A stretch of DNA of 64,000 bases from Amphiura filiformis (lineage: Eukaryota; Echinodermata; Ophiuroidea; Amphilepidida; Amphiuridae), in contig NC_092641.1 in assembly GCF_039555335.1 (NCBI RefSeq), positions 30,006,848-30,070,847 on the forward strand, given 5' to 3'. The notes beneath the pieces are model-generated. The model saw only the letters and a list, made by a program, of their open reading frames with translations, searched no databases and was not told the DNA's origin. Both the position numbers and the translations under genes were made by a program. Position 1 is the stretch's first letter. Every line of letters begins with the position of its first letter. Of this stretch, positions 19,106-41,251 are shown in pieces.

Positions 19106-19121
19106 GGCAGACGATGAAACA

Positions 19122-19170
19122 GACAGCATCATTCGACTAGTACCGACAGAGGAGTGGCATTCAATCCCAG
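19122..19170 (+). other. probable non-coding exon 1 (5' UTR) of the apextrin-like gene
   Basis: Downstream of a TATA-like box, ending in a consensus donor (CAATCCCAG|GTAAGTG). It would be spliced to the acceptor at 21823-21824 (TTCTTTAG|AACACC), 14 bp before the start codon. The 5' limit is a guess. Confidence 0.4.
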
Positions 19171-20104: not shown

Positions 20105-20317
20105 GTGATACGCCACTATGCACTATAATTTGCTGTGGCAACGCATCGTAATTGATTACACCTCATAAATATACATGAGCAAATCATTCCACTTTATTGG
20201 TTAAGCACAAACGACAATGCCTCTTTTCTCGTGCTATGGTTTTCCCTATCTACATGGTATCCTCATCCCCATAGTCAAAGTTCGATGTAATAGACCAAAT
20301 ACTACATGGCTTATCAC

Positions 20318-20998: not shown

Positions 20999-21031
20999 CA
21001 TTGCATAATGATGATGAGATGATTGCTGCAC

Positions 21032-21670
21032 TCATAGAAATTGTTCGTGTAAGTCGTTGCGTCAACTTTCCGAGTAATGCCAACGCGTACAATTTTGAGT
21101 AACGCTGACTCGATATCATTATGTTGGTCGCACTCATTTGCACTTACTTTATTGAGTTGTTACCCCTCAGAAAATGAAACTAGCCTAGGTTAGCATAATT
21201 TTCTAGAGGTGTGCTATAGTATACAAAATTTTGCATTGATTACAAAAATAAATATTTGAATACTGCTAATTGTGCAGAAAATGATCCAATTACGTGAATT
21301 AAGTAACAAAGTACCAAATTGGAATAACTCAAAACAATAAGTACCAGTAACTTAATATGAACGAGTATATCAACTTACATGTTGAGTTACAATAACTCAA
21401 CTAATTGGTTCTTTGAACCTTGTTTATTTGTCTAAGTTCCCTGAACTTGAATTCAGAAGTTGGCATTACTTAAAAAGTTGACGCAACGACTTACATCAAC
21501 TTTTTAAGTAATGCCAACAAAGGTGATTTAGTTGACGGAACTTTTTGAGCTTTTTCAGCATTTTATAAGTTCGGATAACTAAAATGAATTTTGTTTTGGC
21601 AACTTTTACACTATTTTTGAGTTACTCCTTTTGAATTGCGCCAACAAGGCGAACAAGTCTAAGAGTGTGG
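21032..21670. mobile_element. element with layered inverted repeats in intron 1
   Basis: Outer ends CACTCATAGAAATTGTTCG and (inverted) CACTCTTAGACTTGTTCG. An inner pair TAAGTCGTTGCGTCAACTTT occurs at 21051-21086 and, inverted, at 21460-21494. CAACTTTTTAAGTAATGCCAAC-like text recurs several times. Non-coding. Confidence 0.65.
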
Positions 21671-21838
21671 GAATCAACAACCCCAACCCTTTACATGAAC
21701 ATGCTGACTCTGTAAAGTGTGCTAACTAGTCTCGATGGTTTATACTGTATATAGCGCACTATAGATAACTGAGTTGGATTTTGTTCTAAGTAACTAAATC
21801 CGGTTTTCTTTTCTTATTCTTTAGAACACCAGGATAAA

Positions 21839-21929
21839 ATGGCTTCAATTCGAATTCTAACCATCCTTGTATACGTCATTGCCGTTCCACACGGCATAGA
21901 CAGTAGAGAGAATGATTATATCGACTCAG
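21839..21929 (+). CDS. apextrin-like gene, coding exon 1 (signal peptide)
   Basis: The acceptor TTCTTTAG ends at 21824; the ATG at 21839 is the first in the exon. Encodes residues 1-30, mostly signal peptide. Donor CTCAG|GTGAGA; phase 1. Confidence 0.88.
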
Positions 21930-24900
21930 GTGAGAATAATATTTTCGTACGTTTTGTGATAGATTTATTCATTAATCATGTTAATTATGTAACTGTATTA
22001 ATTTCAATTCCCCGGGGCCACTCAGCTACATTCGACGAACGCGTAACGCGCGTTCCGTGTTTAGGGGTCTAAAAACGCCGTTTTTCAACAAAAAGGGGTG
22101 TTTTTTTGGTAACAAGCAAAACGCGTTAAGGGGGTAAATTTGAACACTTGTCGATCCCCTCGCAAATTTTCCCAATTAAGAATTAGCATCGTACCAATCG
22201 TTATGATAATACAGCACCCCATCCCGGCCGCGTAATTTCTTTCTGCAACCATAATGGGCCGCAATGCGATAACACATAGTACATACATGAAATTATAGGC
22301 CTATGAGGCTAGATAGAACACGAGTTTATTACCATTATTATTTCCTCTTACTTAATAAAATAAAAGAAATCGATAGAATTAAAATTCTACAAGGGTTTAC
22401 CTGGGGTTCGAACCCACAATCTATGTATCCATAGTCTAATGCCTACACGACTGTGCTATGATTCGTTGTGCCAGAAAGGTGTTTGTTTATGATACTTATT
22501 GATTACGGAATAAAGTGCATACACACAATATACTATTACTAGTATATTAGTACTAATAAATACGAATATAATCCTAACCCTAACCCTAACCCTAACCCTA
22601 ATCCCTAATCCCTAACCCTTACCCTAACCCTAACCCTAACCCTAACCCCTAAACCCTAACCATAACCATAACCATAACCCTAACCCTAACCCTAACCCTA
22701 ACCCTAACCCTAACCCTAACCCTAACCCTAACGCTAACCCCTAACCCCTAACCCTAACCCTAACCCTAACCCTAACCATAAGACCCTAACCCTAAGACCC
22801 TAACCCCGACAATAATGAACCTTGCCTCGGACTATGCGGTTAGTGATATATTGCGGCCCATTATGGTTGCAGAAAGAAATTAAGCATCCCGGCCCTCCAT
22901 GTATGCTATACCCAATACAGTGTATTGATAACGTCTCCCATACTAGCTATAGCGTTCATTTCTGCATGAAATTTGAAATAAATTCTTACCTGGTGAATTT
23001 TAAAAGAATGTGTACATTGTAATTCCTTTTTTAGCCATTGTCACCCTCTCCATTAAAGTGTATTGTTGATATTAATAAAAAAAAACCTGCTAAGGGGTCC
23101 AATTTTGACCAGAACCTGTTTAGGGGCTAAGCCTACTTTTTGGGGGGAAAGCGCGCTAAAAATCTGTTAAGGGGGTGATTTTGAAAAACAGGGTAGAACC
23201 TGCTTAGGGGGTGTCTTTAAAACCGTTGTTCACGCATGTGTACACCAATATAGCTGAGTGCCCCCCCGGGTTTCAATTGAAAGACTAAACAAGGCAAGAG
23301 AAAGCTTCTTAATAAATCAGATCAACACTAATTTTCTCATTTGCTTAACGAAAATGTGTGTCGCGTTGGTCAAGCGGTCAATCTCGCCAATGTGTGCAGG
23401 TTAGAAAAGTAACGTCATTGCATGATACGATTATTGCCCTTATAAGCGTTTGTGGATATACTCTTTTTGAATCTGAAACATCCACAGTGCAAATCGAACC
23501 CCTTACCGTTTGTACTAAGTTTGAAGTTTATAAAAAATATTTAAAATATAAATTAAACACTTAGCCACTTAGCCTATAGCTATCCGATACCTTAAAGGAG
23601 TATTTCGTGATCCTAACATCCTCTTTTTATGACATTTGTCAGTAGATATCCACGAAAAAAATTTCAGTTGATTCTGAGGTTTTACATGTACATTCATGCA
23701 TGATTAGGTGTATTACACTGCTCTATAGACTTTCGTTCTAGTGTACCAGAACGTAATTCAAATTTCACGATATTTTTGCAAAACGAATTAATCTGCAAGA
23801 ACGTTTGTGTACATAAACATTATGTAGCTAGAGGTTTTAGTGGTATAAAAATCTCATTTATTTATTTATTTATTTATTTATTTGTTTATTTAAGTTTTAA
23901 GAAAAGTGTGGGAGCGGGAAACAACGAATAACAACCTGAACAACAACAATATTAAAACTTTTATACACAATAACACACATTTGTGGTTTGAGAACTGGGA
24001 GAAAAAAATGAAGGTATTGTGATTTACATGAGTTCATTATTATTGTTAATATGTTTTGACTGTTTGAATAATTATCACATGATCTACAGATCCAATCGTG
24101 GCGGCTCCAAGTCCGTGGCCAGTGGGAACATATGGTCTACTCATGCCAACTGATGGATGCCCGAGCACTTCTATATATTTTTACACAGGACAACGGAAAT
24201 TTGACACCGAAGACAGTGACCCAAACAATAACTGGTCTTCTCCGTGCCATCTGGGTGGCTGGTACGGAAAGAATAACATGGAATTGCAGTTCTGTATAAA
24301 AACAGTATTGGATGTAAATGAGAATGCCTGGCCTGCTGGAGAGTATTGTATCTTTCGATTTGGAGGCAGTTGTCCTTACGGTAAGCGGCCCACAGTGTCA
24401 ACACTCTGCAGAACTGACACCTTCTAGTACAGGTTTGACGATCACGTGACAAATCGAATCTGTGACGTCAATATTAATATCGATATCAATTTAAGGCTGT
24501 TCTAGTTAAATTACATACACATTGGCATTTTGGCTGTTCCATTTAATTTACATACTCAACATTTCCCTGTGCACTTAGTCCATGAATTGATCCTGATTTG
24601 CATTGTCGTATAGAGTTATATTTTTGTACACAACAGGGATGTTACTATTGTTTTAACTAAATGAAGCATACTTTTGCTTTTATCTTTCTTTGTCCTTTAT
24701 TAATTATAAATTAGGTGATTTAATTAATATAATTCTTTGTTTCAGCGATCCAGGGGTAAACAGACAAACAAAAACATAGGTCAAAATCCTTCAATTTCTG
24801 TGAAAATTGAACAAAAAGTACCCAAATCCCTACATTTTATATCTCCCTGTGTTATAGACAAATTTTATACGTCACATTTAAAATCATTTAAAATGACTTA

Positions 24901-27900
24901 TAAATTGCCTTATGCTATAATGGGGTCTTATACATTTGTATAAATGCCTTTGGCTTCCAGGTTAGTTTCTCGGAGCTGGTGAGGTGTATCTGGGTTTAAC
25001 TTGGTAGGGTGGTGGTAAGTGGCTGCCCTAAGACTTGATGCATTTTTGGCGCAAAATATGCAAATTAAGTAGCTAATTTGCATATTTAACTTAAAAATTG
25101 GTTTGTTTTTTTTGTGGTTTTTTTGCCATTTCGAAGAACTGGTGAGGCGTATAGGGATATAACTTGATGAGGTTGTGGTAAGCGGCAGTTTCTCGGAGCT
25201 GGTGAGGTGTATTGGGGTATAACTTGGTAGGGTGGTGGTAAGTGGCTGCCCTAAGACTTGATGCAATGTTTGGCGCAAATTAGGTAGCTAATTTGCATAT
25301 TTAACTTTAAAATTGTTTTTGGGTGGTTTTTTGCCATTTCGAAGAACTGGTGAGGCGTATAGGGATGTAACTTGATGAGGTTGTGGTAAGCGGCAGTCGT
25401 AAGATCCGAAGCAATTTTTGTCGCAAGATATGCAAAGTTGTCACCACATTTGCCTATTTTTTTATTTGTCGAATTGCTTTTGGCCATTTTTCGGAACCAT
25501 CTTTAACATTACATTCAAATAATAATTACATTGTAAATTGGAACTGACACCAATTTTTTTCAGGAATATCTTGTTTCCATACAGCTCAATACTCAGTTGA
25601 AATCAATATTCTATTATTGACACAGATAAAGAAAGTTTACATATGCATTGTGTTATAGGACGTGCACCTGGAATTAACTGAATGGCCTAAACGCGTTCCT
25701 TTATACCTATAGAGTATAATTGTCATTCTCAAAATTAAATATATCTCAATTTTTACTTTGGATTTCAAATTTTTTACTTTAAAAATGCAGTAAAAGATAT
25801 TCACAGCAAGCTGCAAGGCCCCGCTAATTAGTGTACTGCTTTTCGAGTGAGTGTACTGGAAACAAAACCATGGTTTTACCTGAAAACAAACTTTTTTCTT
25901 GTAATAGAAACATCATATGGGGTACTAGAGCATGCACAAATCGTAATAATGTGTAGAATATAGAAACACTGTGGTATCTCATATGATAGTCATGGTATGC
26001 TTAGCCTGAGTCGCTCGGCCTATCTCGAACAAAATCGCGATGCGTAGCTGTTAAAAAACGAGAGGATTCGCTGTACTATCACGGCAATTTTTAACACGAA
26101 GATATAGGGATGATGACGATGTGCGGCCGTTCAATATTTACATCGATTTTTTGTCAAACGGCTCTGGTCAAAACTCACACTCCTCCTGGGGTAAGGGCAG
26201 TGGCGGCGCTACGGGCCAGTTGGAGGGCCATTCAACTTTGACGCGCTATTATTAAACTGTACGCTATGAATACGCACACAACGAAATTTCAAATTTGCTT
26301 GGTTTGGGTTGTAGTTTTAAAAGCTTCCAAATTTCTCTCTACAACTCCTAATAGCTATATATTTTTTATAAATAACTACAAGAAAGGCTTTCGACATTCC
26401 ATATATGTTCACGAAAAAATACCGTAGCTTTGCAAGGAAAATGATATGGGCACATAAACACAAATTGTTGTCATGAATTGAGATAAAAGAGTAACAAAAA
26501 CTACTATATTTTAAAACTAAATAATGAAGAAGGAGGCGGCCTATATGCTTCACCCTGGCAGGGCGTAAGACAATGCGAAACACAAATTAATATATGCGAG
26601 GCAAGCTCGAGAAATTATAATTTAAATGACGTGATTGGGGCTCGAGCAAACTGGCATATGAAAATATTGAGAGAGAAAAAATCAGGACTCAGCGGGGATT
26701 GAACCCCGGTCGCTGGATTACCGGTCCAGAGCTTTACCACTGTACAACCTGAGTTCACAGTAGGTACTCGGGCAATCTCAACTTAAGTCCCCATGATAAC
26801 TCTCTCATTGTGTCTCAGCGGCCAATTATATATTAAATAATGAAGAAGGAGGCGGCCTATATGCTTCACCCTGGCAGGGCGTAAGACAATGCGAAACACA
26901 AATTAATATATGCGAGGATCGGAAATTTCCGATCCTCGCATATATTAATTTGTGTTTTGCATTTTAAACTGGTGAGAGTTCATAAATCAGGAATTTGCAT
27001 ATGATTAGAAACATGACTATTATCCTCATATTAAAAATTCAAGATTTTTGGTTGGTTAAGACAAAAACCTGCCGGGATGAAAAGGGTATTTTACACGAAG
27101 GAAAAATACCAGTAAACAGTAGGCCCTGCGACACAACATTGAGAAGATTCATGCGACCCAGTGTTAAACTTCGCGCGCGTATTTCACTGAACGCAGATGA
27201 ATGGCGCGCATTGGCGCAACAAAGTCGCCAGCGTGTACTCGTTCATAGTGTCAAGTCACGCGGTATTGTTATGAAGTTGTTTACTTAATTTTCGTCGATG
27301 GGCCGAATCTGGGTAACCAATTATGAAAGCTTTGAATTTTAAGTTCAATACTTTGGACAAAGACTAATCGATAGATAAAGGTTGAAATTACTTGTCTGGC
27401 TAAAAATTAGAATGATTATTGCTTTAAAAAGCGTTAAGACAGAAAATATCCGGGTTAGAAGTCCTTAGCAACGAAAATAAATTTGAAGGTAAAGCAAACG
27501 CATGAATCATGAATTTTAACGACAAGAGTAGACAAAATGGAAACCAAGTAGAGAATTTTGAAGATATGTTCAGTCCAATTTATTTGTAAGATGATTGGCT
27601 ACACATAATACGATGCATTTCAAATCGAAATTTTCCGCGGGAAAGGTAAAAAAGCATACCCAAGAGTGCGGCAGTCATTTTTGCAAAGGTCGTGTACTTT
27701 AATAATTTGACCTTTAACGGAAAACGCGCATGATGACCCTCCGACTGCGGGTGGGGGCAATGGGGCATTTGCCCCCCCCCCCATATTTTTCTTGCCCCCC
27801 ACTTTTGAGGCAAAAAACCCCAAATCACGTAAATTTCCACTTTTTGCGGCATTTTTTGCAAAATTTGCCAATTTTGCCCCCCTGAAATTCACTTTTCCCC

Positions 27901-30900
27901 AATGTCCCCCAAAAAAAAAAAAAACTTCCTGGCGCCGCCACTGGGTAAGGGGTGGTGCAATAATTATGTGTACCCCGGGGTGATGAATTATAGGGGAGGG
28001 ACAAAGGGGGATAGTATTTTTGGCAGGTCGAAAGGGGGTCAAGCGATATTTCGCACAGATATTTGGGCCCCGTGCGTGGCCCCCGTTTCTATATTAGGGG
28101 CTGTGCAATAATTATGTGTACCCCCGGTTGGTGAACCTTTTTTTTGACGTGCCAAAATTCTTTGCCCCCCCATTACACATGCAAGATTTTGGGGAACCCG
28201 AATTTAAAACCTTATTATTATCTTATCATATAATGCGAGCGCAGCGAGCAGGAAATGTTGCATATTTGAATGTGTTCCTAACGTTTTCCTACACCTTTTT
28301 AGGGCGTAATATAGAAATGGTGCCCAAAATATCTGTGCCAAAAATCACTTGCCCCTCCCCCCTTCGACCTGCCAAAAATCGCTTGACCCCCCTTTCGACA
28401 TGCCAAAACATGCTTGCCCCCCTTTTGGCCTGCCATAAAATCTTTGCCCCACCCCCCTATAATTCACCAGACCGGTGGTACACATAATTATTGCACCACC
28501 CCTAACGCCCTAAAAAGTGTAGAAAAACATTAAAAACAGGTTCAAATATGCAAATTTCCAGCACGCTGCGCTCGCATTATATGATAAGACAGTTTATGGT
28601 TTTAAATTCGGATTCCCAAAAATCTTACTGTGTAAGGGGGGGGGCAAAGGTCTGTTGGCACGTCAACAAAGGGGAGGGCAAACATTTTTTACCTGGCTTT
28701 AATATGTTGACTGACTGTACCCACCAAGTTTCATGCCCATATGACAGATTTGACCTCAGATAACCCCTGGTGACCCGTTACAAAATTTTGGCTATAAATT
28801 CATTCATTCATATTTTATTTTCATCAACCATCAAAATGCATGTGATACATAAAAACGTTGACTGTACCCACCAAGTTTCATGGTCATATGACAGTTTTTA
28901 CTAATTTGACCTCAGATGACCCCTGGATGAACTCTGGTGACCTTGAACCGCTAACCAATACAAACTTGTTATGTCTCGGGTCATCGGTGCACACCGACCA
29001 AGTTTCATGTCCGTATGACAGTTATTACTAATTTGACCTTAGTTGACCCCTGGATGACATCAGGTGACCTTGACCCACTAACCAAGACAAACATTTTCTG
29101 TCTCCGGTCAAGATGCACCCACCCATAAGTTTGAGGACCGTGCTACCCCTAGTCTCTGTAAAAACAGTTTTTGCTAAATTTGACCTCAGATAACCCCTTT
29201 CCTTGCACAAATCGAAAATGATACCAGAGTAGGACTATTGTTGGCACAAAGTGTTTACAAACTAAATTCAGGACTGATGCTGGCTGCCTGGTAAAAACAA
29301 CCAAGTAGACCGCCTTACGTGTCTTACGCTACGAGCTTGAGCGACGCTTGCGCCGTTTGTATTGGAATGAGATGGTGGTCTTGGGTGATGATCTTTTGTA
29401 ATGGAAGTTATCATACATCATGCAGTTATTGTTAACTATGTGTATGCACACAACACAGGGGCACTCACGTAGGTAATTGGCCCGTACTGGTAGCGCTGTG
29501 CTGTGAATATAGGAGATGAACTAGTTAGCGTCAAATATCAAAAAGTATCAAAGCTCTGATTTTAGTACTTGCTCTATGTTTCAATTACTTATTCTTTTTA
29601 AAATATCTGAATTATTAATCCGGTACATGCTTTAATAACGGGGGACCATGCATTTGTATGAGAAAGGAAATCTACCATCTTATCCAAACTCCCGTGTTAA
29701 TCCAATGCACATTTTGCTTCACCGGGCCGCCCTGACTTGGTCGCGTTTGGGAGAGGGGTGCCACCAAACCGTAATAGGTACTTTCTGTCAATCAAGTATG
29801 GTTTATTTTCTACATATATACGGTGGACCGCCTTGATGAGTAAATGATAGCAAACCAGTGAAAAATCCCCAAAACTCAGTCAGTGGAGCTCCGCCCGTAT
29901 ATGTCAATAGCGTCATTATCGATTGGATTAGTCGACCGTAGCGGACAATTCGATTGCTCATTGCATTAATATTATCACGTGGTAAGAAATGTGCATTGGA
30001 CAATCGATTACTATAATGGTTTAGTACTGCATATTTCGGTTTAATCTTCACTAAGCGGGTTTATGGCTGAAAAGGTCACGGTGAATTTGCCGTGGACAAA
30101 ACTGCACTATGATCTATGTATTATTTTGGAAACCTGTATTTTTCCTAAGCCTCCGCTAGCTTGATATGGGCAATTCCAAGCGTTGCGGAATGATGCAAAC
30201 TGCCTTCGTACAAATTTCTTGATGCAGCAGCCAAATATGTATTAACAGCATAAGATGAATAGCATAATGTTAAAGTATTTTTGGTAAGTAAATGATTAAG
30301 GTAGGAGAAACTTTTCCAAACCACCCTAATTTCCTAATTTGCATATGCAAAGTACGCGTTGCGGAATGATGCGCACGGGAGCAGTATTTTTTGCACTAAA
30401 ACATTTTTGACAAACTCTGTGAGTTTAGTAATCTGAGATATTAAATTTGCCATTTAATATAAAGCTTAGGATGTAAACTGACATTATTGTTAGTATCGAT
30501 TTAAAAAAACAACTTGGGCATCGTCTCTTTATGCCAAATTTGCCGACACTAGGTCACGTTGCGGAATGATGCTAGGAGCGTTGCGGAATGATGCTGTGTG
30601 TAAAATCCCATAGAAAATGAAAAGCAGCCCATGTTTGAAAATAAAAATAAATATATCAATAAATTTGAGTAAATTATGTTTTATATACTTAGCTACTTAT
30701 GTTAGCTGACAAATATCAGTATTTATCCAAAAATATTTATCACCGATTTTTTTTAATCCGATAACTTGTGTTGCATGATCACATTTGAAACTAAAATTAT
30801 GTCAACATTCTGCTAGTCTAAAATTCTTGGAAGTGAAATTTAGCCATAGGATGTAACATAACAACTATCACCATCTATCAAGAAATAATCATAACTGTTT

Positions 30901-33900
30901 TTATTTTATCGTAAATTTAAAGAAAAAATCCTTGCAATCCATGGATCCTTATGGCGTTGCGGAATGATGCAGGGGGTTTTGTGGAGAAATGTCACTTGTA
31001 ATGGTTCAGGCAATGCTGAAACATCCATTACTGTAAAGATAGTTCTGTGCAATGCATTTCAGGAAGTTCTAACCCAAAATTGTGAATATTCTTTTCAAAC
31101 GGGTACATATGAAGTATGCATCATTCCGCAACGTTGCGGAATGATGTAACTTTAATTGGTCGTTACCACCGCAAATTAAACTTTTTGAAAATTATTTTTG
31201 TTTCATTGGATAGAGATGAATAAATTTGCTTTGCGTTCTAATTTTAAAGAAAATCAACCTTATTTTACAATTGCAGTGGTAATAAATGATACTTTTGCGT
31301 TGTGGAATGATGCTTTTAATCGTAAAATTGGTACTCAAACAATGCTGACGAAGCTACACGTTATAAAATATGAAAATTTCTGGTGTTTATGTTTTGAGTT
31401 ACTTATAAACTTTATATTCACGTGCATAATTTGTTTCCAAAATTTTACAGCACAGAGCAATTGCTGTGTTTTTAGTTTTGCTGCTTTTACCGGTCAAGAA
31501 TATGCAAATTTATGCAAATTAGGATGTTTTTCTAACAATGAACACCATTTCCTCCTCAAAAAGTACGCTTTCAGAAAATATAGCTTTTTAACTACAATAT
31601 GTGACACGATCTTGTCCATGCGGGCCAAAGGAGGCATTTTTGAAAATTGAGTTACTATAACTATTACCTTATAAACATTAGGCTATCATAATACTGAAAA
31701 CACTGAAGGTCAAGCATACTTAGTTCTAAAGTTATGAAGTTTCATGATGTCTGTTTTCTTATGTATTTTATTGTATTTTTACTCCATATTTTTGCCTTTA
31801 TCTCAATTTCAAATTTGCCGCCTTTGGCCCCCATAGACCAGATCGTGTCACATATGAGATCAAAATCACATACCTGACTTGATTTTTAAATTTTGACAAT
31901 TTGGGCGAGGTTGCTTGGAATTGACCATATGTCTATTTAGGGTCACCCCTACCTCATCGCAATCCTACTGCAATTTGTCCTCAATCAAGTTTGCAAATTG
32001 CAATTGATTGTAACCTTTTCTTATAATACCCGCTGTACTCTTGGCTGTAAAAACATATTAATGAAATCTAGGACTTCTTCCATCTGAAGTGTGACTGTAC
32101 AGTAGAGGCTGCTCAACCAAGTACATTAAGACATGAAACATTCGGCAATAAAGTGTCGAGTTTTATCACCTTTTTCATGAACAATGTTTCAGCTTCACAT
32201 ACATAATCTTAATATTCTCATAAGAAATAATGTGCAAAATTGTTGTTTCTAGAATGATACTTCCTACTGTAGGTTTGATGTTTATCTGACAGTACATGGA
32301 TCTATTAATAACTAGTGCATAGGGCAGCACACTTTACACCTTTTACTCTTACAGTTATATATAAATTTACTAGATCATGATATCTTTTGAATCAGATTGA
32401 TTTCATCAATGAAGTGTTACTAGTTACTATCAATTTTATCAAATAACAAGCTTATAATTATTCCCTGCAATCATTGTTTTGGCAATGAGTGACAATTTCA
32501 AGAATAGCTGCCTCTTGCCAAATTCTTTAAGTTCATATAACATGTGCTTATCTCATGATCCACACTCATAATGGCCATAAACAAGGTATGAATCTTTATT
32601 GGCCACTCAACAATGGGAAGTCCTTTGTTCGTTTTTTAGAAAAGGTCAATAAAAGGACCTGTGACACACTTGATGGTATGACGTCACAGGAGAGTCGCCG
32701 GGGTAGTTTCCGGATTGCTGCGTCGTAGGTCCTTGACAGGTTGTGGCGAAGTCCCCCTCCTCTGTTGAGCGCAGGTTCCTCCCGCTGGACATGTATTGCC
32801 TCCCTGACTCCTCTTTTCAAACCACTTATGTTCTCTGTCGAGCACTAGCACATCCTTATCCTCAAATGAATGATTGGCAAATTTGAGGTGCGTGTAAACT
32901 GCAGAATCGTTCAAACCTGTAGAACTGGGTCTACGGTGCTGATACATACGTTTGTGCAACGGTTGTTTAGTCTCCCCTATATATGAGCCCTCACAGTCAG
33001 AGTCTTTGCACTGGATCTACTATATTACTTTGTTTATTACGGGGGGTTGTCCTTGGGATGCACCAGTTTCTGTCTCAAAGTATTGCCAGGTTTCAAGGAG
33101 ACGGGGATGTTGTGTTTCCCGAATATTCGCTTAAGCTTCTCCGAAACCCAGCAATATATGGGATGGTAATGTTCCTTGGACGAGTGCTCCTTGTGGCAGA
33201 GGAATCAGACGAGATGGATTTTGATTTCTCGCGAGGTTGAGAGCTTTCTCAAATGTCCAGTTCTGGTACCCACAAGTACCTAGCGCAGATTTGAGATGAT
33301 TGCGTTCTTCCAACTTAGCCTCCTTGGTAGATGGGATTATATCCGCACGATGAAATTACCCCGAGTTTGTGAATGAGCGGATGGTGCGAATCGAACAACA
33401 TGTATTGGTCCGTAAGAGTGGATTTCCTGTACACTGTGGTATTTAGCGAGCCATTGTTCTCAATTGTGACCAAACAATCCCGGAATGGGCGTTTGTTGTC
33501 ATATAAACCTTCCTTCCTACTGACTATAGGTCGCAAAGGAATGTCAGGTTTATGAATCTTTGGGAGACCGTAAAAATCCGGTAGCGTTTCACCAGGGTAC
33601 AACTTCGATACGATCTATGGCCTCAGCCTTCTCTCATTGTTAAAGAGACTCGATTACTTTCTTTTTGTAACCAGCCGTGGGATCTCTTTTCAACGGCTCA
33701 TAAACTTTAACATTATTCAACAAAGCATTGGCTTTCTCTTCATAGTCAGATTTGTCTAAAACAACAGTACATCTATCTTTATCTGCTGGTAACACAAGTA
33801 TGTTGTTGTCTTTACCTAGCGTCGAAATGGCAGTGCGTTGTTCCTTGCTGATATTTAATGGTGGTAGTTTAGCATTAACAAGACAAGCGGTCACTTGAGC

Positions 33901-36900
33901 ACGTAATTCGTCCGCCTTCGCGACGTCCAATTGATTATGCTTTATCGCTGTTGCTGTAATTCTGTTGCTGTAATAAGCTCCACATGTGGGATCCTATCCG
34001 GCGTGACAGAGGTTTAATCCTCGCGATAAGACATCCTTTTCCGCGACAGAAAGAGTCCGACTGGAGAGGTTTTTCACCCAGCGTTCCTTAGCTGCTAGCG
34101 AATCCTGGTCTAATTAATCCATCATTATCACGCCTATTTTTATGTCTATCCGCTCGACAGAAAACGTTCGTACTTTTGTTGTTGTCTTGTTTTCGACTTC
34201 CTGATTGGATCAAGTTGACCGCGAGTCGCGAACTCTGACACTTGACCCCATACGTCACTCGGCAACCGCTTGCTTAGCGACTCGGAAATTGCCGAAATGT
34301 CCCTTTTCAGAACATCAATCGTAAAATTTGTCTGTCTTACACGCTCATTTATCAAATCTTTCTTGGCGATGATTTCATCAGCCCTATGTCCTTTTACTCG
34401 TTGCTTAATCCACAAACTTCGCGGTACAGTATCCGAGTGGAGGCATCTCAAATTAAATCGTAGGTGCGTCCCCCCCTGACGGTGCGGTTGAAGTAGTCAG
34501 AGAGTTTCTACTAGCTGATACTTCACTGAGTCAACGCACTAAGCTTACCATTGAGCAAATTTGCTCCCTTTTGGAACTTTGTTTGAACTCCGCCGGTTTC
34601 CCCTAATTTATACATGGAACGTTTTGAGCGGTTAGCCCCCGGCACACCGCCAACGCATTGGTTTCGTTATGTGGACGATACTCTCGTGAAATTGAAGAAA
34701 AGCGAACAAGGCCCCTTCTTTGAACATATCAACGCGTTGACGAGAACATCAGTTTCACGCAGGAAGGTTTATATGACAACAAACTCCCATTCCTGGATTG
34801 TTTGGTCACAATTGAGAAACTCGGGGTAATTAAAACCCTATTTGATCGTGCAGATAAAATCCCATCTACCAAGGAGGCTAAGTTGGAAGAACGCAATCAT
34901 CTCAAATCTGCGCTAGGTACTTGTGGGTACCAGAACTGGACATTTGAGAAAGCTCTCAAACCTCGCGAGAAATCAAAATCCATCTCGTCTGATTCCTCTG
35001 CCACAAGGAGCACTCGTCCAAGGAACATTACCATCACATATATTGCTGGCGTTTCGGAGAAGCTTAAGCGAAAATTCGGGAAACACAACAGCCCCGTCTC
35101 CTTGAAACCTGGCAAAATTTTGAGACAGAAACTGGTGCATCCCAAGGACACCCCCCCGTAATAAACAAAGTAATATAGTTTATGCCATCCAGTGCAAAGA
35201 CTCTGACTGTGAGGACTCATATATAGGGGAGACTAAACAACACTTGCACAAACGTATGTATCAGCCCCGTAGACCCAGTTCTACAGGTTTGAACGATTCT
35301 GCAGTTTTCACGCACCTCAAATGTTCCAATCATTCATTTGAGGATAAGGATGTGCTAGTGCTCGACAGAGAACATAAGTGGTTTGGAAAAAGGAGTCAAG
35401 GAGGCAATACATGCCCGGCGGGAGGAACCTTCGCTCAACAGAGGAGAGGGACTTCGCCACAACCTGTCAAGGACCTACGACGCAGCAATCCGGAAACTAC
35501 CTCGGCGACTCTCCTGTGACGTCATACCATTAAGTGTGTCACTAGTCAACAATCTGATCAGTCAGCCTGATGATGCGTCTTGGATGAGACGCGATACTGT
35601 TGCTATCAAAAATAGTAAGTCCAGATGAACAGATTTAATATTCATTTTATTATGTTTATCTACCTGGATGCCTGAGAATATTCACAAATTTATGCGACAA
35701 TTATAAATACAGTGTTTCTTAACCACGAAAAATCATTAAAATAATTAACAAAAAACAATTATAACATCAAAAATAAAACAATCAATTTAACAACAACGTC
35801 ACACAATGATCAACTTAATAACAAAGAATGAACAGTTTACCAACCCAAAGTGTTACAATTAAACATGACAACAAATAAACACAAATCCCGACCGGCACAC
35901 AACCCATCTTGAAAAAAAAGCAAGGGAATGTGCCGGCATGGAAAGCGAACCCACGACCTTCCGATCTCTAGACGGACGCCTTATCCATATTAGGCTACCA
36001 GCTCCCGCTGATAAACTGTTAATAACATTTATTCTAGTTTCATACACTCGTATATCAAAGCAGCCAATCAGAAAAGCGGTTAGAAAAATACGAAACATGC
36101 ATTGACTGTGTATATTGTGCACTCCGCGTACTACATTGTACGCGCAGTGTTTCGCGCGCGATCGCGTCGCGTTGGATTGATGCATATATATTTGTTACTA
36201 TTTTCCAACATTTTGAGTGATAATACAGGGTGTCCCAGAAAAAATTTCCGAGTGAATAAAATTGAACGTAAGTCAAGAAATAGACATTAGAATCAAACTA
36301 TTTAAAATGTAGCGCATAGCCTATTTTATTGCGCATCACATACGAAAATTTAATTTGATTCGGTTGACTGGTTGCGAAGAAATCAACGATTATATAATGC
36401 GTGCATCAATGCAGTTCATTCCAAGTTTGATCAACAGGCGCATTTTTCATACTCGCTCACCGCTTCCTAAAGTTTGTGCATCTCATTAAATTTAGTCAAC
36501 ATTAATATCTATTTTATAATTCGACGTTGTTATGTTATTTATGCTTTCACTGAAGATGATTTATACAATTGGAAGCTTTCCAACTTCTTTTCTTTTCTCT
36601 TTAGGTTGTGCAAATATGTTATATTTTAACTTTCCAAAGAACATTTGAGCCAAGAATGACAATGTTCAAGCATATGGTTCAAGTGCTTACAGCTTTATGT
36701 TATTTGATACCATGCAAAATTAATGTTGAAGTTTTAAAAGATTTAAACTTTGCATTTAATACAATTTCTTGGAAATAAAAACATTTTTATTTTTATTTTT
36801 TTAAGCCAGCTGGAATTCTTTATGCAATCATTCTTTATGCAACATTCATATCAACATTAACGAAAAAGATATTTACAAGTACCGAACATCATCTTACATA

Positions 36901-39900
36901 CAAGCTTTCATTTTCAATATCGTGCAGGTTTTCAAATTTGAACAAAACCTAATTAAATGTTATGCAAGAAACAGATTGTTTATAAAGAACGAAAAGGATT
37001 TCACCGAACAAAATATGAAGCCCATTGACAGTTATTAACCAATGGTGCGCATTGTGTAGAATGACCTTTCTTTCAAACTTGGAATGAACTGAATTGAAGC
37101 ATGCGTTATGTAATCGCTCATTTCTTCACAATCAGTGAACCGATTCCAGTAAAGTTAGCGTATAAGATGCAGGATAAGACGGGCTACACGCTGATGTTTA
37201 GATTTTTGGATTTTGACGTCTATTTCTCGACTTACGTCCAAATTCATTCTCCCGGTAATTTTTTCTGGGACACCCTGTACGTTATAAAACAGAAAAATAA
37301 TGTGTTTTTTCTGCTTCTCGTGTATGAAATAGGTTAATGAACTTGTATTACTTGTTGCTCGAGAAATTAGACAAAATAATGCACTTGCGCTGATGTTGAT
37401 GCGTCTAATGCACTCCCCCCCTTCGGGGCTCGTGCATTAGACGCATCAACATCAGCGCGCGTGCATTATTTTGTCTAATTTCTCGAGCAACAAGTAATAC
37501 GCGTAACTAACCTATAATTAATAGTGACTGCAAACACAATTTGAGAATGCGATATTTTTTACACTGAAGGAAGGACGGACTGTCGGAACGACAGACGAGG
37601 CTGTTCCTATGATCTTACTTCTTTGACGTAAGATAAAAAGCAGGATTGGGTGTTGGGGTTATTAAAAATACCACCTTTTACCTACCCTGTGGGTGAATAA
37701 ACAACAAAATACGATATGAGATATAATTAAACTACCTGTACTTAAAACGGATAAATTGGAAGATGAAGCCATAGTTTGTTCTTTTTGACCGCACAATGTT
37801 GACCATTCCCAGCAAACACAAAACGTTTTCGACATCATTCGCAAAAGGTTATAATATGTTGTCAGAAAACGTTTAAATGTCGGGTTATATAAAGGGTATA
37901 TTAAGGGTATAAAACATTTTCATAACATTGAAAAACATATTTTGATAATCTACTCCCAGCAAACACAAAATGTTTTACAGAAAACGTTTAAATGTCGGGT
38001 TATATAAAGGGTATAAAAACGTTTTAATAACATTCGAAAAACATTTTTGACAACCTGATACAAAACATTCTAAACAGAATGTTATTTTTGGGTTAAAAAA
38101 ATATTTTGCGAAAAATGTTTGCCCAAAATATTTGCAATAACGTTTTAAATACGTTTTTATGACCTTTATATAACCCGACATTTAAATGTTATTAAAACGT
38201 TTTGAAGAAACATTTTAAGAACATTTCTGTGTTTGCTGGGGCAAATATTTTAACATAATGTTATTTAAGTGTTGACAAAATATTTGGCAAAAATGTTTGC
38301 AAAAATAGTTTACAATAACATTTTTGAAAACATTTTAGAAATATTGTTGTATTGTGTTATCATACAAAACGTTTTAAAACGTTTTTATGACCTTTATATA
38401 ACCCGACATTTTAATGTTATTAAAACGTTTTTACCTAAACCAAAAGCCAAAATAAAACTTATTTAAAACGTTTTAAAAACGTTTTTGTGTTTGCGGGGTT
38501 ATTTATAGGGTAATTACACGTTAATGGGAGAGAAATTAGACAAAATAATGCACGCGCGCTGATGTTGATGCGTCTAATGCACGAGCCCCGAAGGGGGGAG
38601 TGCATTAGACATCAACATCAACATCAGCGCAAGTGCATTATTTCGTCTAATTTCTCGAGCAATAAGTAATACAAGTTCAAGTTTATTAATCTATTTCATA
38701 TACGAGAAGAAAAAAACACGTGCTTTTTGCTTTTTTTAATATAACAAATTATCTCTAAAAATGTTGGAAAACAGAACCAAATATAAATGCATCAACCCGC
38801 CCGAAAAATGAATCAATCCTACGCGACGCGAAACACTGCGCGTAGTACGCGGAGTGCACAATATACACAATCAATGCATGTTTCGTACTTTCTAACAGCT
38901 TTTCTGAATGGCTGCTTTGATATAGGAGTGTATGAAATTGTTTTCACCATGTGCCCCATGCTGTTGTGGTTATGATACATTCCAGCTAAACCTTCTTTAC
39001 CACACTCTAAAACAGCGTTCCATATTTTATTCTTTAGGCATGTCAGAAGGCCGGGTTGGTTGGGATGACGAAGACAGTGATAATGAAAACAGTCACGGTG
39101 GTACACTTCCTGATGGCGTCTACGACAGCAATACTCACATCGACTTTTGCTGTCAAACCAGTGGGTCTGCTTCCGCGAGTATTAACCTACCAACGAATGA
39201 CAACTTCATGCTTTTCCAATACAATCAGTATCAATGTCAAGAGGTATATATTTTCACATGTGTTATCATTAAGGTTATTAATTATTTTAAACTGTTGTGA
39301 TTTGGAAGTGCACAACATCTTATGAATGGTAGTGAACTTTGGCAAAAACTGCATTGCTCAATTCATAGCGAGCGTGTAGAAGAATTAAAATATCACAGAT
39401 ATACTTTAATAGGTACTGCGGTTCTTGAGTTACGTTGTAAAGAGGGCTGAAACAACAACACTTTTGTAAAACGTACATAACTCATTAACAACAATAAATT
39501 AAGCAAGTTTGCAAAGTATACGATTTGTAGAATGAACTTTTGCAAAACATCAAGGTATTAATTTTCAATAATATATTGATCTAGATAATAAAAATCGATG
39601 TTTAGGTTGCTTCGACCAACAATACCTCGTCTACCCTTAAATACATAGCTATGCTGAAGGCACTAGTACTGTGGCTTAGTACTTAAGTTAAGGTACTAGT
39701 ACGGGGTCTGACCCATAATCAAATGGTTGCGGCCCGGGGTGCACTCCCTAAAAATAAGTGAAGGGGATGTGCGGCCACATTTGACCCCCATTTTCAAACC
39801 GCCAGTCACTGAATAACCCCCTTTTATTTTGCTTATTTTGCTCTCACCTAATGACCTGACCCCAATTTTTAGATTACACTGAATGACCCCCATATCTAGA

Positions 39901-40559
39901 AATAAATGCTCTCACTGAACGACAACCAGGTTCTAAAATCAATGCTCGAGCCCTAAATAAACCCCATTTTCAGAAAAAAAATGCTCTCACTTAATGACCC
40001 CATTTTCAGAAATATATGTTTTCACTGAAAGATCCCCATTTTTAAGAATAAACAATCTCACTGAATGCCTAAATGTTCAAAATGAATGCTCTTACTGAAT
40101 GACCTCCTATTCCCGCCCCTATTTTATCATCCTCACCAAATGACACCCCCTATTTTTTGGTTCTCACTGAAAGACCTATTCTTTTCTTACTCTGTCACCG
40201 AAAGACCCCTACTTTTGGGGTCGTGCCCGCACATCCCGTTACTTCCATATTTGAGTGCCCTCTACAAGAATAGTTGACTTTTGATAACATTTTCTTTAGG
40301 TGGACATGTACGTACGCGCAAAAACATTTTGCTTGTGTGTTTGTTTTCTGTTTCTTTTTCAACATTGATCTCAAAACTTTATTTTTGTTTTTCGTTTTCT
40401 CTATAGGTTGATGGCATGAGAGCCACAAGTGAATGGTTCAGATGGGATACAGAGGACCGTAACAACGAAGATTATGACACTGGATCCCACCCTTACAAGG
40501 GCGTGGAGGATGATAATGATGACATAAAACTGCATTTTTGCTACTATGAACGAATCTAG
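21839..40559 (+). CDS. apextrin-like secreted protein with ApeC domain (4 coding exons)
   Basis: Spliced CDS 21839-21929, 24090-24380, 39038-39243 and 40407-40559, total 246 codons. Phases (1, 1, 0) join without a stop and every intron is GT-AG. Residues 1-20 form a signal peptide (MASIRILTILVYVIAV). Residues 40-246 are one ApeC domain: WPVGTYGLLMPTDGCPS, FDTEDSDPNNNWSSPCHLGG, WPAGEYCIFRFGGSCPYG, VGWDDEDSDNENSHGG, LPDGVYDSNTHIDFCCQ, FRWDTEDRNNEDYD and a C-terminal LHFCYYERI. The paired D(T/D)ED blocks and regular cysteines are family hallmarks. Apextrin-like proteins are known from sea urchin and amphioxus, where secreted members bind bacterial peptidoglycan components; that role is inferred here. 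Length fits the signal peptide plus single ApeC subtype. Intron 3 is 14.7 kb, full of mobile DNA. A likely poly(A) signal AATAAA lies at 40812-40817. Confidence 0.93.
22385..22465 (-). pseudogene. tRNA-like sequence (SINE head or tRNA pseudogene)
   Basis: The minus strand has an A-box-like TAGCACAGTCGTGTAGG and a B-box-like GGGTTCGAACCCC at normal spacing, but no 7 bp acceptor stem and a malformed anticodon arm. Likely RNA polymerase III derived, not a working tRNA. Confidence 0.45.
22571..22808. repeat. interstitial telomeric repeat (CCCTAA)n
   Basis: About 38 hexamer units, mostly exact CCCTAA, with variants (ATCCCTAA, CCATAA, AAGACCCTAA). The vertebrate/deuterostome-type telomere unit, here internal to the chromosome. 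Confidence 0.97.
23590..23790. repeat. dispersed repeat, copy 2 (pair with 6430-6720)
   Basis: Same block order as 6430-6660, starting GAGTATTTCGTGATCCTAAC; followed by a (TTTA)n microsatellite at 23856-23892. Confidence 0.75.
24090..24380 (+). CDS. apextrin-like gene, coding exon 2 (ApeC N-terminal part)
   Basis: Acceptor GATCTACAG|AT, donor TTACG|GTAAGC. Encodes residues 31-127, from DPIVAAPSPWPVGTYG to GGSCPYG. Enters and leaves in phase 1. Confidence 0.92.
24440..24950. other. no recognised feature (intron 3 start)
   Basis: AT-rich intronic sequence without repeats matching elsewhere in the window. Confidence 0.4.
24960..25410. repeat. ~225 bp tandem duplication with internal half-repeats
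   Basis: Two head-to-tail units (about 24963-25187 and 25188-25404), each starting TTTCTCGGAGCTGGTGAGGT. Each unit contains two related halves ending GGTAAGTGGC and GGTAAGCGGC, and an AGCTAATTTGCATATTTAAC block. Minus-strand frames (SEKLPLTTT, PYTPHQ) are repeat artefacts. Confidence 0.8.
25600..26150 (+). repeat. dispersed ~540 bp repeat, plus copy
   Basis: Inverted relative to 62650-63145. Shared blocks include GACACAGATAAAGAAAGTT, AAAATGCAGTAAAAG, GCTAATTAGTGTA, AATCGTAATAATGTGTAGAA and GCCTGAGTCGCTCGGCCTAT. Possibly a MITE or SINE family; ends not defined. Confidence 0.75.
26517..26963. repeat. 85 bp direct repeats flanking a tRNA-like segment, plus 76 bp palindrome
   Basis: TAAATAATGAAGAAGGAGGC through TTAATATATGCGAGG occurs at about 26517-26602 and again at about 26834-26919, almost identical. 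The second copy runs into a near-perfect palindrome at 26888-26963, centred at 26925/26926 on GGAAATTTCC with 38 bp arms and one mismatch. Confidence 0.85.
26686..26760 (-). pseudogene. tRNA-like sequence, Thr-like anticodon loop
   Basis: The minus strand has a good anticodon stem (CTGGA CCGGTAA TCCAG, anticodon GGT, Thr), a good T arm (CCGGGGTTCAATCCCCG) and six of seven acceptor pairs (ACTCAG/CTGAGT). The D arm pairs poorly and position 33 is C instead of the invariant U. More likely a tRNA pseudogene or tRNA-headed repeat than a working gene. Confidence 0.5.
26995..27288 (+). other. 97-codon open frame, unrecognised
   Basis: GC-richer than its surroundings and with a plausible amino-acid mix (RPCDTTLRRFMRP, ISLNADEWRALAQQSRQ), but no domain I can name and no matching splice partners. 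It sits in intron 3 of the apextrin-like gene and may be a transposon-derived fragment. Confidence 0.2.
27740..28510. mobile_element. element with GTGCAATAATTATGTGTACC inverted repeats
   Basis: AGGGGTGGTGCAATAATTATGTGTACCCC at about 27948-27977 is described as the left end; its inverse lies at 28478-28503. A further copy of the same phrase occurs at 28093-28125. The interior carries the GGGGTCAAGCGAT / ATCGCTTGACCCCCC family in both orientations. The 27740-27950 stretch is C-rich (CCCCCC runs) and ends CGCCGCCACTGGG. No coding potential. Confidence 0.65.
28705..29205. repeat. ~115 bp tandem repeat, 4 diverged units
   Basis: Each unit contains CACCAAGTTTCATG, CATATGACAG, TAATTTGACCTCAGATGACC and CTGGTGACC in order. 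The last unit is the most diverged. Confidence 0.75.
29210..30165. other. no recognised feature
   Basis: Intronic sequence. Frames at 29648-30051 lack domain similarity. Confidence 0.4.
30175..31310. repeat. cluster of CGTTGCGGAATGATGC motifs
   Basis: The 16 bp motif occurs at about 30180, 30358, 30560, 30580 and 30954, is palindromically paired at 31113-31147 (GCATCATTCCGCAACG then TTGCGGAATGATG), and appears in degenerate form at 31296 (CGTTGTGGAATGATGC). Spacers are AT-rich and unrelated. No coding function visible. Confidence 0.85.
31597..31855. repeat. 55 bp inverted repeat with 150 bp loop
   Basis: ATATGTGACACGATCTTGTC and GGGCCAAAGGAGGCA-type text at 31597-31652 is inverted at 31801-31855. 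A small foldback or MITE. Confidence 0.75.
31860..32590. other. no recognised feature
   Basis: AT-rich intron 3 sequence between the small foldback and the Penelope-like elements. Confidence 0.4.
32596..34475 (-). pseudogene. Penelope-like element, minus copy (RT palm deleted)
   Basis: From right to left: an N-terminal region (34451-34146) with DVWGQVSEFATRGQL; then about 34100-33640 with ERWVKNLSSRTLS, AEKDVLSRGLNL and LVLPADKDRCTVVLDKSDYE; then 33602-33315 with LPDFYGLPKIHKPDIPLRPI. The text jumps from RPIVSRK directly to EGLYDNKRPFRDCLVTIENN, deleting the palm with its catalytic YVDD. The C-terminal GIY-YIG-type endonuclease part (about 33050-32600) has TKQPLHKRMYQHRRPSS and ALNRGGGLRHNLSRTYDAAI, with a frame change near 32820. 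This order (RT then GIY-YIG) defines Penelope-like retroelements. Dead copy. Confidence 0.85.
34476..35640 (+). pseudogene. Penelope-like element, plus copy (YVDD to GIY-YIG)
   Basis: Begins VVREFLLADTSLSQRTKLTI and EQICSLLELCLNSAGF, then lacks the fingers/palm segment that should contain the AMGSP-type motif, and resumes YMERFERLAPGTPPTHWFRY with an intact YVDD. Next come GPFFEHINAL, a frameshift near 34740, KSALGTCGYQNWTFEKAL, and the endonuclease: VYAIQCKDSDCEDSYIGETK (GIY-YIG core with zinc-ligand cysteines), HLHKRMYQPRRPSS and SLNRGEGLRHNLSRTYDAAI. Internal deletions and frameshifts make it non-functional. Roughly 670 bp (34860-35530) is nearly identical but inverted relative to the minus copy. 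Confidence 0.85.
35566..35607 (+). ncRNA. hammerhead-ribozyme-like motif at the Penelope-like element end
   Basis: CTGATGA (35567-35573) is followed by a 6 bp stem II, GCGTCT (35575-35580) pairing with AGACGC (35587-35592) around a TGGATG loop. GATAC then stands where the core GAAAC is expected. Hammerhead motifs are established features of Penelope-like element termini. The A-to-T change in the GAAA core would be expected to abolish cleavage, so this is probably a decayed ribozyme. Confidence 0.5.
35880..36005 (-). mobile_element. tRNA-Arg-like SINE head
   Basis: The minus strand reads GTAGCCTAATATGGATAAGG, CGTCCGTCT, then GTCGTGGGTTCG, resembling a tRNA-Arg (TGGCCTAATGGATAAGGCGTC-type D arm and B box). 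It is followed by a non-tRNA part with ATGCCGGCACATTCCC and a T-run. Too degenerate for a tRNA gene; fits a tRNA-derived SINE. Confidence 0.55.
36226..37277. mobile_element. 1052 bp mariner-like element, long TIRs, no transposase
   Basis: CAGGGTGTCCCAGAAAAAAT at the left is inverted at the right (ATTTTTTCTGGGACACCCTG), with similarity extending about 190 bp inward. TA target dinucleotides lie at 36224-36225 and 37278-37279. The interior lacks any DDE-transposase motif. Its termini resemble those of the 10607-11605 element. Confidence 0.88.
37349..37498. repeat. ~150 bp near-perfect hairpin
   Basis: TTGCTCGAGAAATTAGACAA through GCGTCTAATGCAC folds back on GTGCATTAGACGC through TTGTCTAATTTCTCGAGCAA, with a C/G-rich loop (CCCCCCCTTCGGGG). 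Arms are about 65-70 bp with few mismatches. A second copy lies at 38528-38670. Confidence 0.9.
37530..37800. other. no recognised feature
   Basis: Short spacer in intron 3 between the hairpin and the AACGTTTT array. Confidence 0.4.
37808..38498. repeat. two overlapping AACGTTTT-family copies
   Basis: CCCAGCAAACACAAAACG starts occur at 37808 and 37955, and GTGTTTGCTGGG / GTGTTTGCGGGG ends at 38240 and 38498. The interior contains AATGTCGGGTTATATAAAGG and its inverse several times. Tandem or nested arrangement. Confidence 0.8.
38520..38945 (+). mobile_element. hairpin-ended repeat, plus copy
   Basis: Begins with the hairpin (38528-38670) and continues with the body matching 36013-36225 and 37278-37345 inverted. 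It gives the empty site for the mariner-like insertion (GATAATTTGTTATA context near 38740). It ends 90 bp before apextrin exon 3. Confidence 0.75.
39038..39243 (+). CDS. apextrin-like gene, coding exon 3 (ApeC middle)
   Basis: Acceptor ATTCTTTAG|GC, donor CAAGAG|GTATAT. Encodes residues 128-196, including VGWDDEDSDNENSHGG and FCCQ. Leaves in phase 0. Confidence 0.92.
39270..39640 (+). repeat. uninterrupted copy of the 8.3-9.9 kb repeat
   Basis: Runs GGTTATTAATTATTTTAAAC to ATACCTCGTCTACCCTTAAA and is collinear with the minus-strand element at 8311-9750 minus its two nested insertions, and with 55260-56385 minus its insertion. Lies in intron 4 of the apextrin-like gene. Confidence 0.8.
39715..40255. 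repeat. CTCACTGAATGACCCC tandem-type repeat
   Basis: About a dozen imperfect units of roughly 35 bp (TGCTCTCACTGAATGACCCC, ATTTTCAGAAATAA) bounded by GGATGTGCGGCC and CGTGCCCGCACATCCCGTTAC. The same family occurs inverted at 48318-48765. Confidence 0.8.
40407..40559 (+). CDS. apextrin-like gene, last exon (ApeC C-terminus)
   Basis: Acceptor TTCTCTATAG|GT. Encodes 50 residues from VDGMRATSEWFRWDTED to HFCYYERI and the TAG stop at 40557-40559. Confidence 0.92.
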   Translation, partial: VDGMRATSEWFRWDTEDRNNEDYDTGSHPYKGVEDDNDDIKLHFCYYERI

Positions 40560-40938
40560 TTGAGTATAACAGGAAGATGAACTAGTGTGTCATCATGAAA
40601 TGTTATTAGCATAAATCTTGAAAATAACAACAAAATAATGTATATTATAAAATAATATTATCAATTTCACTTAAGGCTAAAAGGGGTGTAGGCTATAAAT
40701 TCAATCATTTTCAATTTCGCACCTTTATTTCTGTAATTAATAACCCACAAACATGGGTAAATTACAAAAACCTTAATCATTCATAACTGTATAAACAAAG
40801 GGAGATGAGAAAATAAACCTTCCGCGTAAGGAGAGGATGATCGAAAAGCCAATCATTGACAACGTTTTAATTAATTTTTATCAGACAAAGAAACAGGGCA
40901 AACAAAAGTATATTATATTATACTATATACTATACTAT

Positions 40939-41251
40939 CCCAGCAAACACAAAACGTTTTCGACATTATTCGCAAAAGGTTAGAAAATGTTGCCATAAAA
41001 AGTTGTTTTCATAACATTTTTTGGAAAACTCAATGCAAAATATTCTAACATAATGCTATTTAAGTGTTTACAAAATATTTGGCAAAAAAACTTTGCAAAC
41101 ATATTTTACAATAACATGTTGACAACATTTTAACAGATGTTGTTATAGTGTGTTTTCATACAAAATGTTTTTAAATCGTTTTCATGATCTTAACCTGATA
41201 TTAAAACGTTTTGACCAAAATCGAAACCCAAAACGTTTAGTGTTTGCTGGG
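40939..41251. mobile_element. 313 bp AACGTTTT-family element, intact ends
   Basis: Complete copy from CCCAGCAAACACAAAACG to GTTTAGTGTTTGCTGGG, flanked by ATACTAT on both sides (40932-40938 and 41252-41258). The flanks are low-complexity, so the duplication length is uncertain. Confidence 0.75.

Follow-up and report, generated by a model that had tools for sequence, protein, structure and literature searches.

An intact-looking four-exon ApeC gene of Amphiura filiformis with a repeat-rich 14.7 kb intron

Four small open segments lie far apart between positions 21839 and 40559 of the window, a 64-kb stretch of Amphiura filiformis DNA, and the locus raises the question whether they form a single gene and, if so, what its product would do. 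The first-pass annotation had read them as a complete apextrin-like gene that is recovered by splicing across mobile DNA. That observation is confirmed here, as the region holds an intact-looking four-exon ApeC gene, and the interpretation attached to it is supported overall.

Exons, splice sites and domain match

All four coding exons lie on the plus strand. Exon 1 (21839-21929, 91 nt) contains the start codon, the signal-peptide-like residues 1-30 and the donor CAG/GTGAGA; exon 2 (24090-24380, 291 nt) covers positions 1-90 of the ApeC model with the first DXED motif; exon 3 (39038-39243, 206 nt) covers positions 93-162 with the second; and exon 4 (40407-40559, 153 nt) covers positions 163-208 with the third and ends in the stop codon TAG. 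The first AATAAA 3' of the stop codon, at 40812-40817, is a candidate polyadenylation signal. Joined, the exons give a coding sequence of 741 nt, an open frame of 246 residues with zero internal stops. The introns are all GT-AG, in phases 1, 1 and 0: 2160 bp for the first (21930-24089), 14,657 bp for the second (24381-39037), which is the longest and rich in repeats, and 1163 bp for the third (39244-40406), with a 36-bp minisatellite at 39877-40104. The annotated exon sizes, the phase-compatible junctions, the 18.7 kb coding span (18,721 bp by arithmetic) and the largest gap of 14.7 kb all hold; the long interval, labelled intron 3, comes second among the three coding introns. A long intron is in itself nothing unusual.

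Splice sites were scored with matrices. Ranked against all GTs in the window, the donors of exons 1, 2 and 3 fall at the 99.9th, 99.5th and 93.1th percentile, and the acceptors of exons 2, 3 and 4, ranked against all AGs, at the 85.0th, 98.6th and 99.9th; the exon-2 acceptor and the exon-3 donor come out weakest, both being mediocre. The GC content is 0.451 for the coding sequence versus 0.382 for the long intron. A second ApeC copy was searched for in the window with tblastn, and none was found at E < 0.1.

The Pfam search of the spliced protein that the annotation had proposed as a check was carried out. ApeC (PF16977) was matched with E 1.4e-64 and 218.2 bits (cut-off 26.5) over positions 1-208 of 208, far exceeding chance, and was the only Pfam family matched at E <= 10. 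Searched singly, exons 2, 3 and 4 scored 76.2, 79.6 and 40.1 bits, all above the cut-off and collinear, with model positions 91-92 uncovered at the exon junctions. From its N-terminus onwards the protein has a signal-peptide-like stretch, a linker of about 17 residues and a single complete ApeC domain, which stops 3 residues short of the C-terminus. Nine cysteines are present, all within residues 54-241; the eight conserved in the family may be among them, C83 presumably being the extra, ninth one. Where paired D(T/D)ED blocks had been described, we find three DXED motifs, at residues 69, 137 and 210, one each in exons 2, 3 and 4. No function of these motifs is known according to the available part of PMC8361754.

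Three repeats within the domain

The ApeC domain of this protein appears to consist of three tandem repeats of about 70 residues, each with one DXED motif. Its self-alignment scored 95, with a maximum of 57 among shuffled sequences (0 of 150 shuffles reached 95); after deletion of the DXED motifs the score was 63, reached by 3 of 400 shuffles. In pairwise comparisons, repeats 1 and 2 and repeats 2 and 3 were each matched by 0 of 2000 shuffles, and repeats 1 and 3 by 10 of 2000; the boundaries for these pair tests were picked by eye, and the self-alignment and DXED-deletion tests are independent of them. An ungapped offset scan peaked at 68, yet all means were negative, so that the repeat is detectable only with gaps. 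Exon 2 holds repeat 1 (residues 40-110) and the beginning of repeat 2, and exon 3 the remainder of repeat 2 and the beginning of repeat 3; the two introns inside the domain lie 7 nt (repeat 2) and 6 nt (repeat 3) past the codon of the corresponding cysteine.

No description of a three-repeat make-up of ApeC was found in the searchable literature. Sequence searches of the PDB returned nothing relevant (best E 0.19 for the spliced protein and 0.77 for a three-repeat profile), and an AlphaFold prediction for exon 2 by itself, for which exons 3 and 4 served as the alignment, was uninformative (mean pLDDT 42.4). Tentatively, and with the odds against it, ApeC might be a lectin domain with threefold pseudo-symmetry, derived by tandem triplication from a unit of about 70 residues with one DXED motif, with an intron kept at equivalent places in repeats 2 and 3 and with three equivalent ligand or metal sites. 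If this triplication reading were true, the three sites would allow a single-domain protein to agglutinate bacteria. Relatives with all three DXED motifs mutated still bind, which counts against a role of the motif in binding. Should the three repeats hold across the family, they would offer a structural idea for a domain for which sequence searches found no solved relative, and they suggest testing the repeats singly.

Proposed role and competing readings

The product is very probably a shortest-form ApeC protein, predicted to be secreted and to act as a soluble, peptidoglycan-binding and microbe-agglutinating pattern-recognition lectin. The three introns, among them the repeat-filled one of 14.7 kb, would be spliced out; by analogy with characterised relatives, the mature protein would be secreted, would bind bacterial peptidoglycan as a soluble pattern-recognition lectin, and would agglutinate bacteria without killing them. 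Judged from its anatomy, the three repeats may form a pseudo-threefold domain that could supply the valency for agglutination. In the available parts of PMC8361754 and PMC9585378, short-form ApeC proteins of amphioxus and molluscs are described as binding and agglutinating microbes without killing, and Lys-type peptidoglycan as being bound by amphioxus ACP3/5 and two mollusc proteins; binding spectra vary among relatives, ACP1/2 differing from ACP3/5 (PMC8361754, in the part available). Of the first-pass term "immune effector", the immune role is retained by analogy with these relatives, and the word effector gives way to pattern-recognition, agglutinating lectin because the short-form relatives agglutinate the microbes that they bind but do not kill them.

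An extracellular-matrix or developmental protein instead of an immune lectin is improbable. Such a role in apical cell adhesion has been proposed for sea urchin apextrin (PMC8361754, in the part available), but that protein is of the MACPF-ApeC type, and the short secreted forms that have been tested, from amphioxus, oyster and snail, bind and agglutinate microbes as far as the available sources describe them.

It is very unlikely that the true start lies elsewhere than in exon 1 and that the ApeC exons form the C-terminus of a longer protein, for instance a multidomain ACP or an apextrin of the MACPF-ApeC type. Multidomain architectures are common among ACPs (PMC9585378, available part), and 14 nt 5' of the ATG, at 21824, lies the end of a strong acceptor-like site, with zero in-frame stops between the two; the closest in-frame stop 5' of the ATG is at 21791. 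Against this, exon 1 looks like a hydrophobic N-terminus that begins at the ATG. Among 145 upstream candidates, defined as phase-1 ATG-to-donor stretches upstream of exon 2, it alone combines hydropathy of at least 2.93, its own best 10-residue mean, with a donor score of at least 7.42; the signal peptide is judged here from hydropathy only, and in our own reading it has no clear cleavage site by the -3,-1 rule. Likewise, the three plus-strand frames of 9100-24089, searched with stops masked as X, gave no other domain above cut-off, MACPF included, and as sole sub-cut-off match an irrelevant Trypan_PARP (E 0.011), a scan that covers about 15 kb, can miss small exons and loses sensitivity in long masked frames. 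The full-length ApeC, the candidate exon 1 and the lack of any other domain above cut-off, in the spliced protein as in these upstream frames, support the signal-peptide-plus-ApeC class named in the first pass. The acceptor-like site may instead serve a non-coding 5' exon that is joined at 21825; alternatively, transcription may start near the TATATA run at 21748-21753.

Mobile DNA occupies two of the introns. In the first, a foldback element (22010-23270, no strand assigned) contains telomere-like (CCCTAA)n repeats at 22569-22806 and is flanked by an 8-bp direct repeat, TTTCAATT, at 22002-22009 and 23271-23278, which is read as its target-site duplication. In the second, two inverted copies of one retroelement (32656-35547, no strand assigned), which may be Penelope-like, have arms that are 95-99% complementary, each with a fragment of a GIY-YIG-like nuclease, and the plus-strand fragment has a YVDD box. 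Ten of the 86 open frames listed at >= 55 aa were scanned; among these, GIY-YIG matches turned up in either orientation (E 0.0012 and 0.0016) and an RVT_1 match on the plus strand only (E 0.014), all of them below the curated cut-offs. The two minus-strand pieces where a reverse transcriptase was expected gave zero Pfam matches, and against the PDB one gave 12 irrelevant matches (best E 0.22, ribosomal protein L19) and the other none; a six-frame scan of 24600-38904, with X at stops, yielded no match at E <= 0.1. A reverse transcriptase in this intron is therefore weakly supported: of the claim of reverse transcriptases in both orientations, the inverted copies and the plus-strand trace stand, and the minus-strand pieces gave no match.

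That the gene is broken or split, with transcripts that stop within the long intron and leave the C-terminal exons unjoined, is most improbable: 14.7 kb of repeat-rich DNA separates exons 2 and 3 and read-through of the exon-2 donor meets a stop after 15 residues, but the four exons are without stops or frameshifts, the ApeC model runs on across the junction with 2 positions missing, the long intron has its donor at the 99.5th and its acceptor at the 98.6th percentile, and the first AATAAA past 24427 (counting AATAAA only, not variants such as ATTAAA) occurs at 27476. Repeats that swell one intron may make gene finders lose such genes.

Relatives and known ApeC proteins

Relatives outside animals were sought in several ways. 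The ApeC part gave no match at E <= 1 against plasmids and phages (tblastn); a pattern search with the spliced protein gave 2 matches in viral contigs and 14 in genome contigs, and an alignment-based scan of viral contigs gave 59 pattern matches, with 0 confirmed in either. In whole bacterial genomes, PF16977 rose above the cut-off in 0 of 1835 genome searches (9 + 345 + 246 + 349 + 292 + 297 + 297, samples of groups only, with six centre genomes counted twice), and no control genome matched either. Five sub-cut-off matches at E <= 0.01, from the batches of 345, 246 and 349, are consistent with chance, and the batches of 292, 297 and 297 had none at E <= 0.001. Two of the three sub-cut-off proteins from the 246-genome batch were inspected; both are long and are, we assume, von Willebrand A proteins. 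Distant bacterial relatives of ApeC are claimed in the available part of PMC8361754, a claim neither supported nor contradicted here, since no control genome matched and absence is not shown.

The gene is an ordinary addition to the known, bacteria-binding ApeC family, and provides one more shortest-form protein for this fast-turning-over family of invertebrate immunity. With apextrin proper (MACPF plus ApeC) it shares the C-terminal position of ApeC, but no MACPF was found in the spliced protein or in the plus frames of 9100-24089. Like amphioxus ACP1/2/3/5, it is probably of the secreted type, and it has a C-terminal ApeC (PMC8361754, available part, as for the amphioxus details that follow). 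The amphioxus ACPs have eight conserved cysteines, and ACP1/2 keep three DXED motifs. ACP3 and ACP5 differ from the present protein in length (561 and 636 aa), and ACP5 additionally has a CUB domain. Whereas ACP3 has a long non-ApeC region that binds TRAF6, only about 17 residues separate the likely signal peptide from ApeC here, and hence no TRAF6 branch is predicted. Between phyla, ACPs have no orthologues, as the available part of PMC9585378 states; in the same source, oyster CgACP1, of the group 1 short form, resembles the Amphiura filiformis protein in its plan of a signal peptide (putative in the latter), one ApeC and little else, in size (mature residues 21-239, compared with 246 aa in all) and, by description and not by alignment, in its three DXED motifs.

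The ApeC gene model

The first-pass annotation had proposed a four-exon apextrin-like (ApeC) gene on the forward strand of this eukaryotic DNA, and its exons (21839-21929, 24090-24380, 39038-39243 and 40407-40559) proved correctly placed: joined, they yield an open frame of 246 amino acids with GT-AG at all three introns, whose phases in the spliced frame are, in order, 1, 1 and 0. The Pfam search proposed there for the spliced protein returned a single family at E <= 10, ApeC, whose model is matched end to end (E 1.4e-64). Joining exons 2-4 is not guesswork, since the ApeC part of each passes the family cut-off singly and the model positions are collinear (1-90, 93-162 and 163-208, respectively); across the three, two model positions are absent and no piece is duplicated. 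In a tblastn search with the spliced protein, no ApeC exons were found elsewhere in the window at E < 0.1 besides these exons themselves. The next three matches (E 0.30, 0.36 and 0.61) begin inside ApeC exons and are mainly ApeC repeats aligning with one another; noise accounts for the last four (E 2.9 to 7.7).

A stop codon immediately 5' of the exon-2 acceptor shuts the frame upstream, and an upstream exon is therefore required. Candidates were forward-strand ATGs 5' of exon 2, followed by a phase-1 GT after 20 to 90 codons (n = 145); the annotated exon 1 is the only one of these to reach both 2.93 in ten-residue hydropathy and 7.42 in donor score. Splice sites were scored with matrices and ranked as percentiles against all GTs or all AGs in the window, which placed the donors of introns 1, 2 and 3 at 99.9, 99.5 and 93.1 percent and the acceptors at 85.0, 98.6 and 99.9 percent. 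A further acceptor-like site, ending before 21825 and ranked at 99.4 percent, makes a non-coding first exon possible, in which case the transcribed gene would exceed 18.7 kb. The nearest AATAAA 3' of the stop codon lies at 40812. As far as sequence can tell, the ApeC gene is real, complete and ordinary.

Introns and surrounding sequence

Long introns full of repeats are usual in animal genes, and here the intronic repeats and insertions leave the ApeC coding exons unbroken. A single foldback insertion (22010-23270) makes up more than half of the first coding intron (2160 bp); its ends are inverted, an 8-bp direct repeat (TTTCAATT) flanks it, and within it lies a telomere-like CCCTAA array of about 240 bp (22569-22806). 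The second (14,657 bp) contains many repeats, including two inverted, near-identical retroelement copies (32656-35547; arms 95-99% complementary), possibly Penelope-like. Reverse transcriptases in both orientations, as claimed for this intron, are plausible but not proved: GIY-YIG-like nuclease fragments occur on both strands of the inverted element and an RT-like fragment on the forward strand alone, all below Pfam cut-offs in the 10 open frames scanned of 86 listed, and no Pfam hit at E <= 0.1 came from scanning the frames of this intron whole, their stops masked as X. The third (1163 bp) holds a minisatellite.

A repeat family beginning TCCCAGCAAACACAAAACGTTTTCGACAT, with internal inverted repeats, was observed in the long intron (37807-38452) and the 3' flank (40938-41233). 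Two reverse-strand tRNA-like stretches, at 26684-26756 (29.9 bits against an Rfam threshold of 29; also detected by ARAGORN) and 35929-36004 (33.8 bits against 29; missed by ARAGORN), are possibly tRNA-derived short repeats.

Outside the ApeC gene, a reverse transcriptase open frame lies at 15233-16435 (reverse strand; PF00078, E 7.1e-26), and purine-rich AAGA-type tandem repeats span about 650 bp (45171-45822). A Neurexophilin-like stretch (50570-51325, forward strand; PF06312, E 4.1e-10) precedes a segment that matches the NXPE C-terminal domain over its full length (52545-53429, forward strand; PF24536, E 2.4e-68), and the two are probably exons of a single NXPE-type gene. An open frame of 537 codons with several C2H2 zinc fingers occupies 58723-60336 (reverse strand).

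Internal repeats of the ApeC domain

A pattern of WP or LP start, cysteine, DXED and F-C is seen three times in the protein. The repeats start at residues 40, 111 and 178, with cysteines 14, 14 and 16 residues further on (54, 125, 194), DXED motifs at 69, 137 and 210, and F-C cysteines 30, 28 and 31 residues past the DXED start (99, 165, 241). Self-alignment with the diagonal excluded gave a single long path, residues 40-165 on 111-241, which is the entire ApeC domain displaced by one repeat. In this test, which covers one protein and not the ApeC family, the score was 95, against a shuffle mean of 32.9 (s.d. 6.7, maximum 57; reached by 0 of 150). With the DXED motifs deleted it fell to 63 (shuffle mean 31.1, maximum 71; reached by 3 of 400), so the motifs carry a good part of the repeat signal. 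Aligning repeat 1 with repeat 3 scored 46 (shuffles 24.9, maximum 44; 0 of 400).

For this protein alone, a three-repeat build is much more likely than the wider reading of ApeC as a threefold pseudo-symmetric domain, triplicated from a one-DXED unit and carrying three equivalent ligand or metal sites. We consider the latter unlikely, its odds being lowered because, in the available text of the ApeC literature, relatives in which every DXED is mutated keep binding, so that intact DXED motifs are not required for binding as such; whether they shape the binding spectrum is a question its authors raise. The three-repeat reading is the part of the result that deserves a further look.

The in-domain introns lie 7 and 6 nt past the codons of cysteines 125 and 194, which stand opposite each other in the long self-alignment. 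This same placement in two repeats suggests an intron-linked duplication. The differing phases (1 and 0) count against simple descent, and the alignment of repeat 1 with repeat 3, a shorter one, does not bring the cysteines opposite each other.

Comparison with known ApeC proteins

In their available text, PMC8361754 and PMC9585378 give eight cysteines and three DXED motifs as ApeC features and leave internal repeats, trefoil or symmetry undescribed; likewise, introns go unmentioned in PMC9585378 and exons in PMC8361754. Lancelet ApeC genes are described as varying in presence and absence, with 5 of 13 annotated genes in both species (PMC12373286, in part), so turnover of ApeC genes is to be expected.

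In amphioxus, oyster and snail, short-form ApeC-containing proteins (ACPs) are reported to bind microbes and to agglutinate them without killing, and Lys-type peptidoglycan is bound by ACP3/5 and the two mollusc proteins (PMC8361754, PMC9585378), the binding spectrum of ACP1/2 being different from that of ACP3/5 (PMC8361754). A conserved non-ApeC region of amphioxus ACP3 binds TRAF6 (PMC8361754). The present protein, with almost nothing beyond ApeC, fits the description of the shortest form, oyster CgACP1 (PMC9585378), and by this analogy would most likely be secreted and act as a lectin that binds peptidoglycan and agglutinates, the TRAF6 branch being absent.
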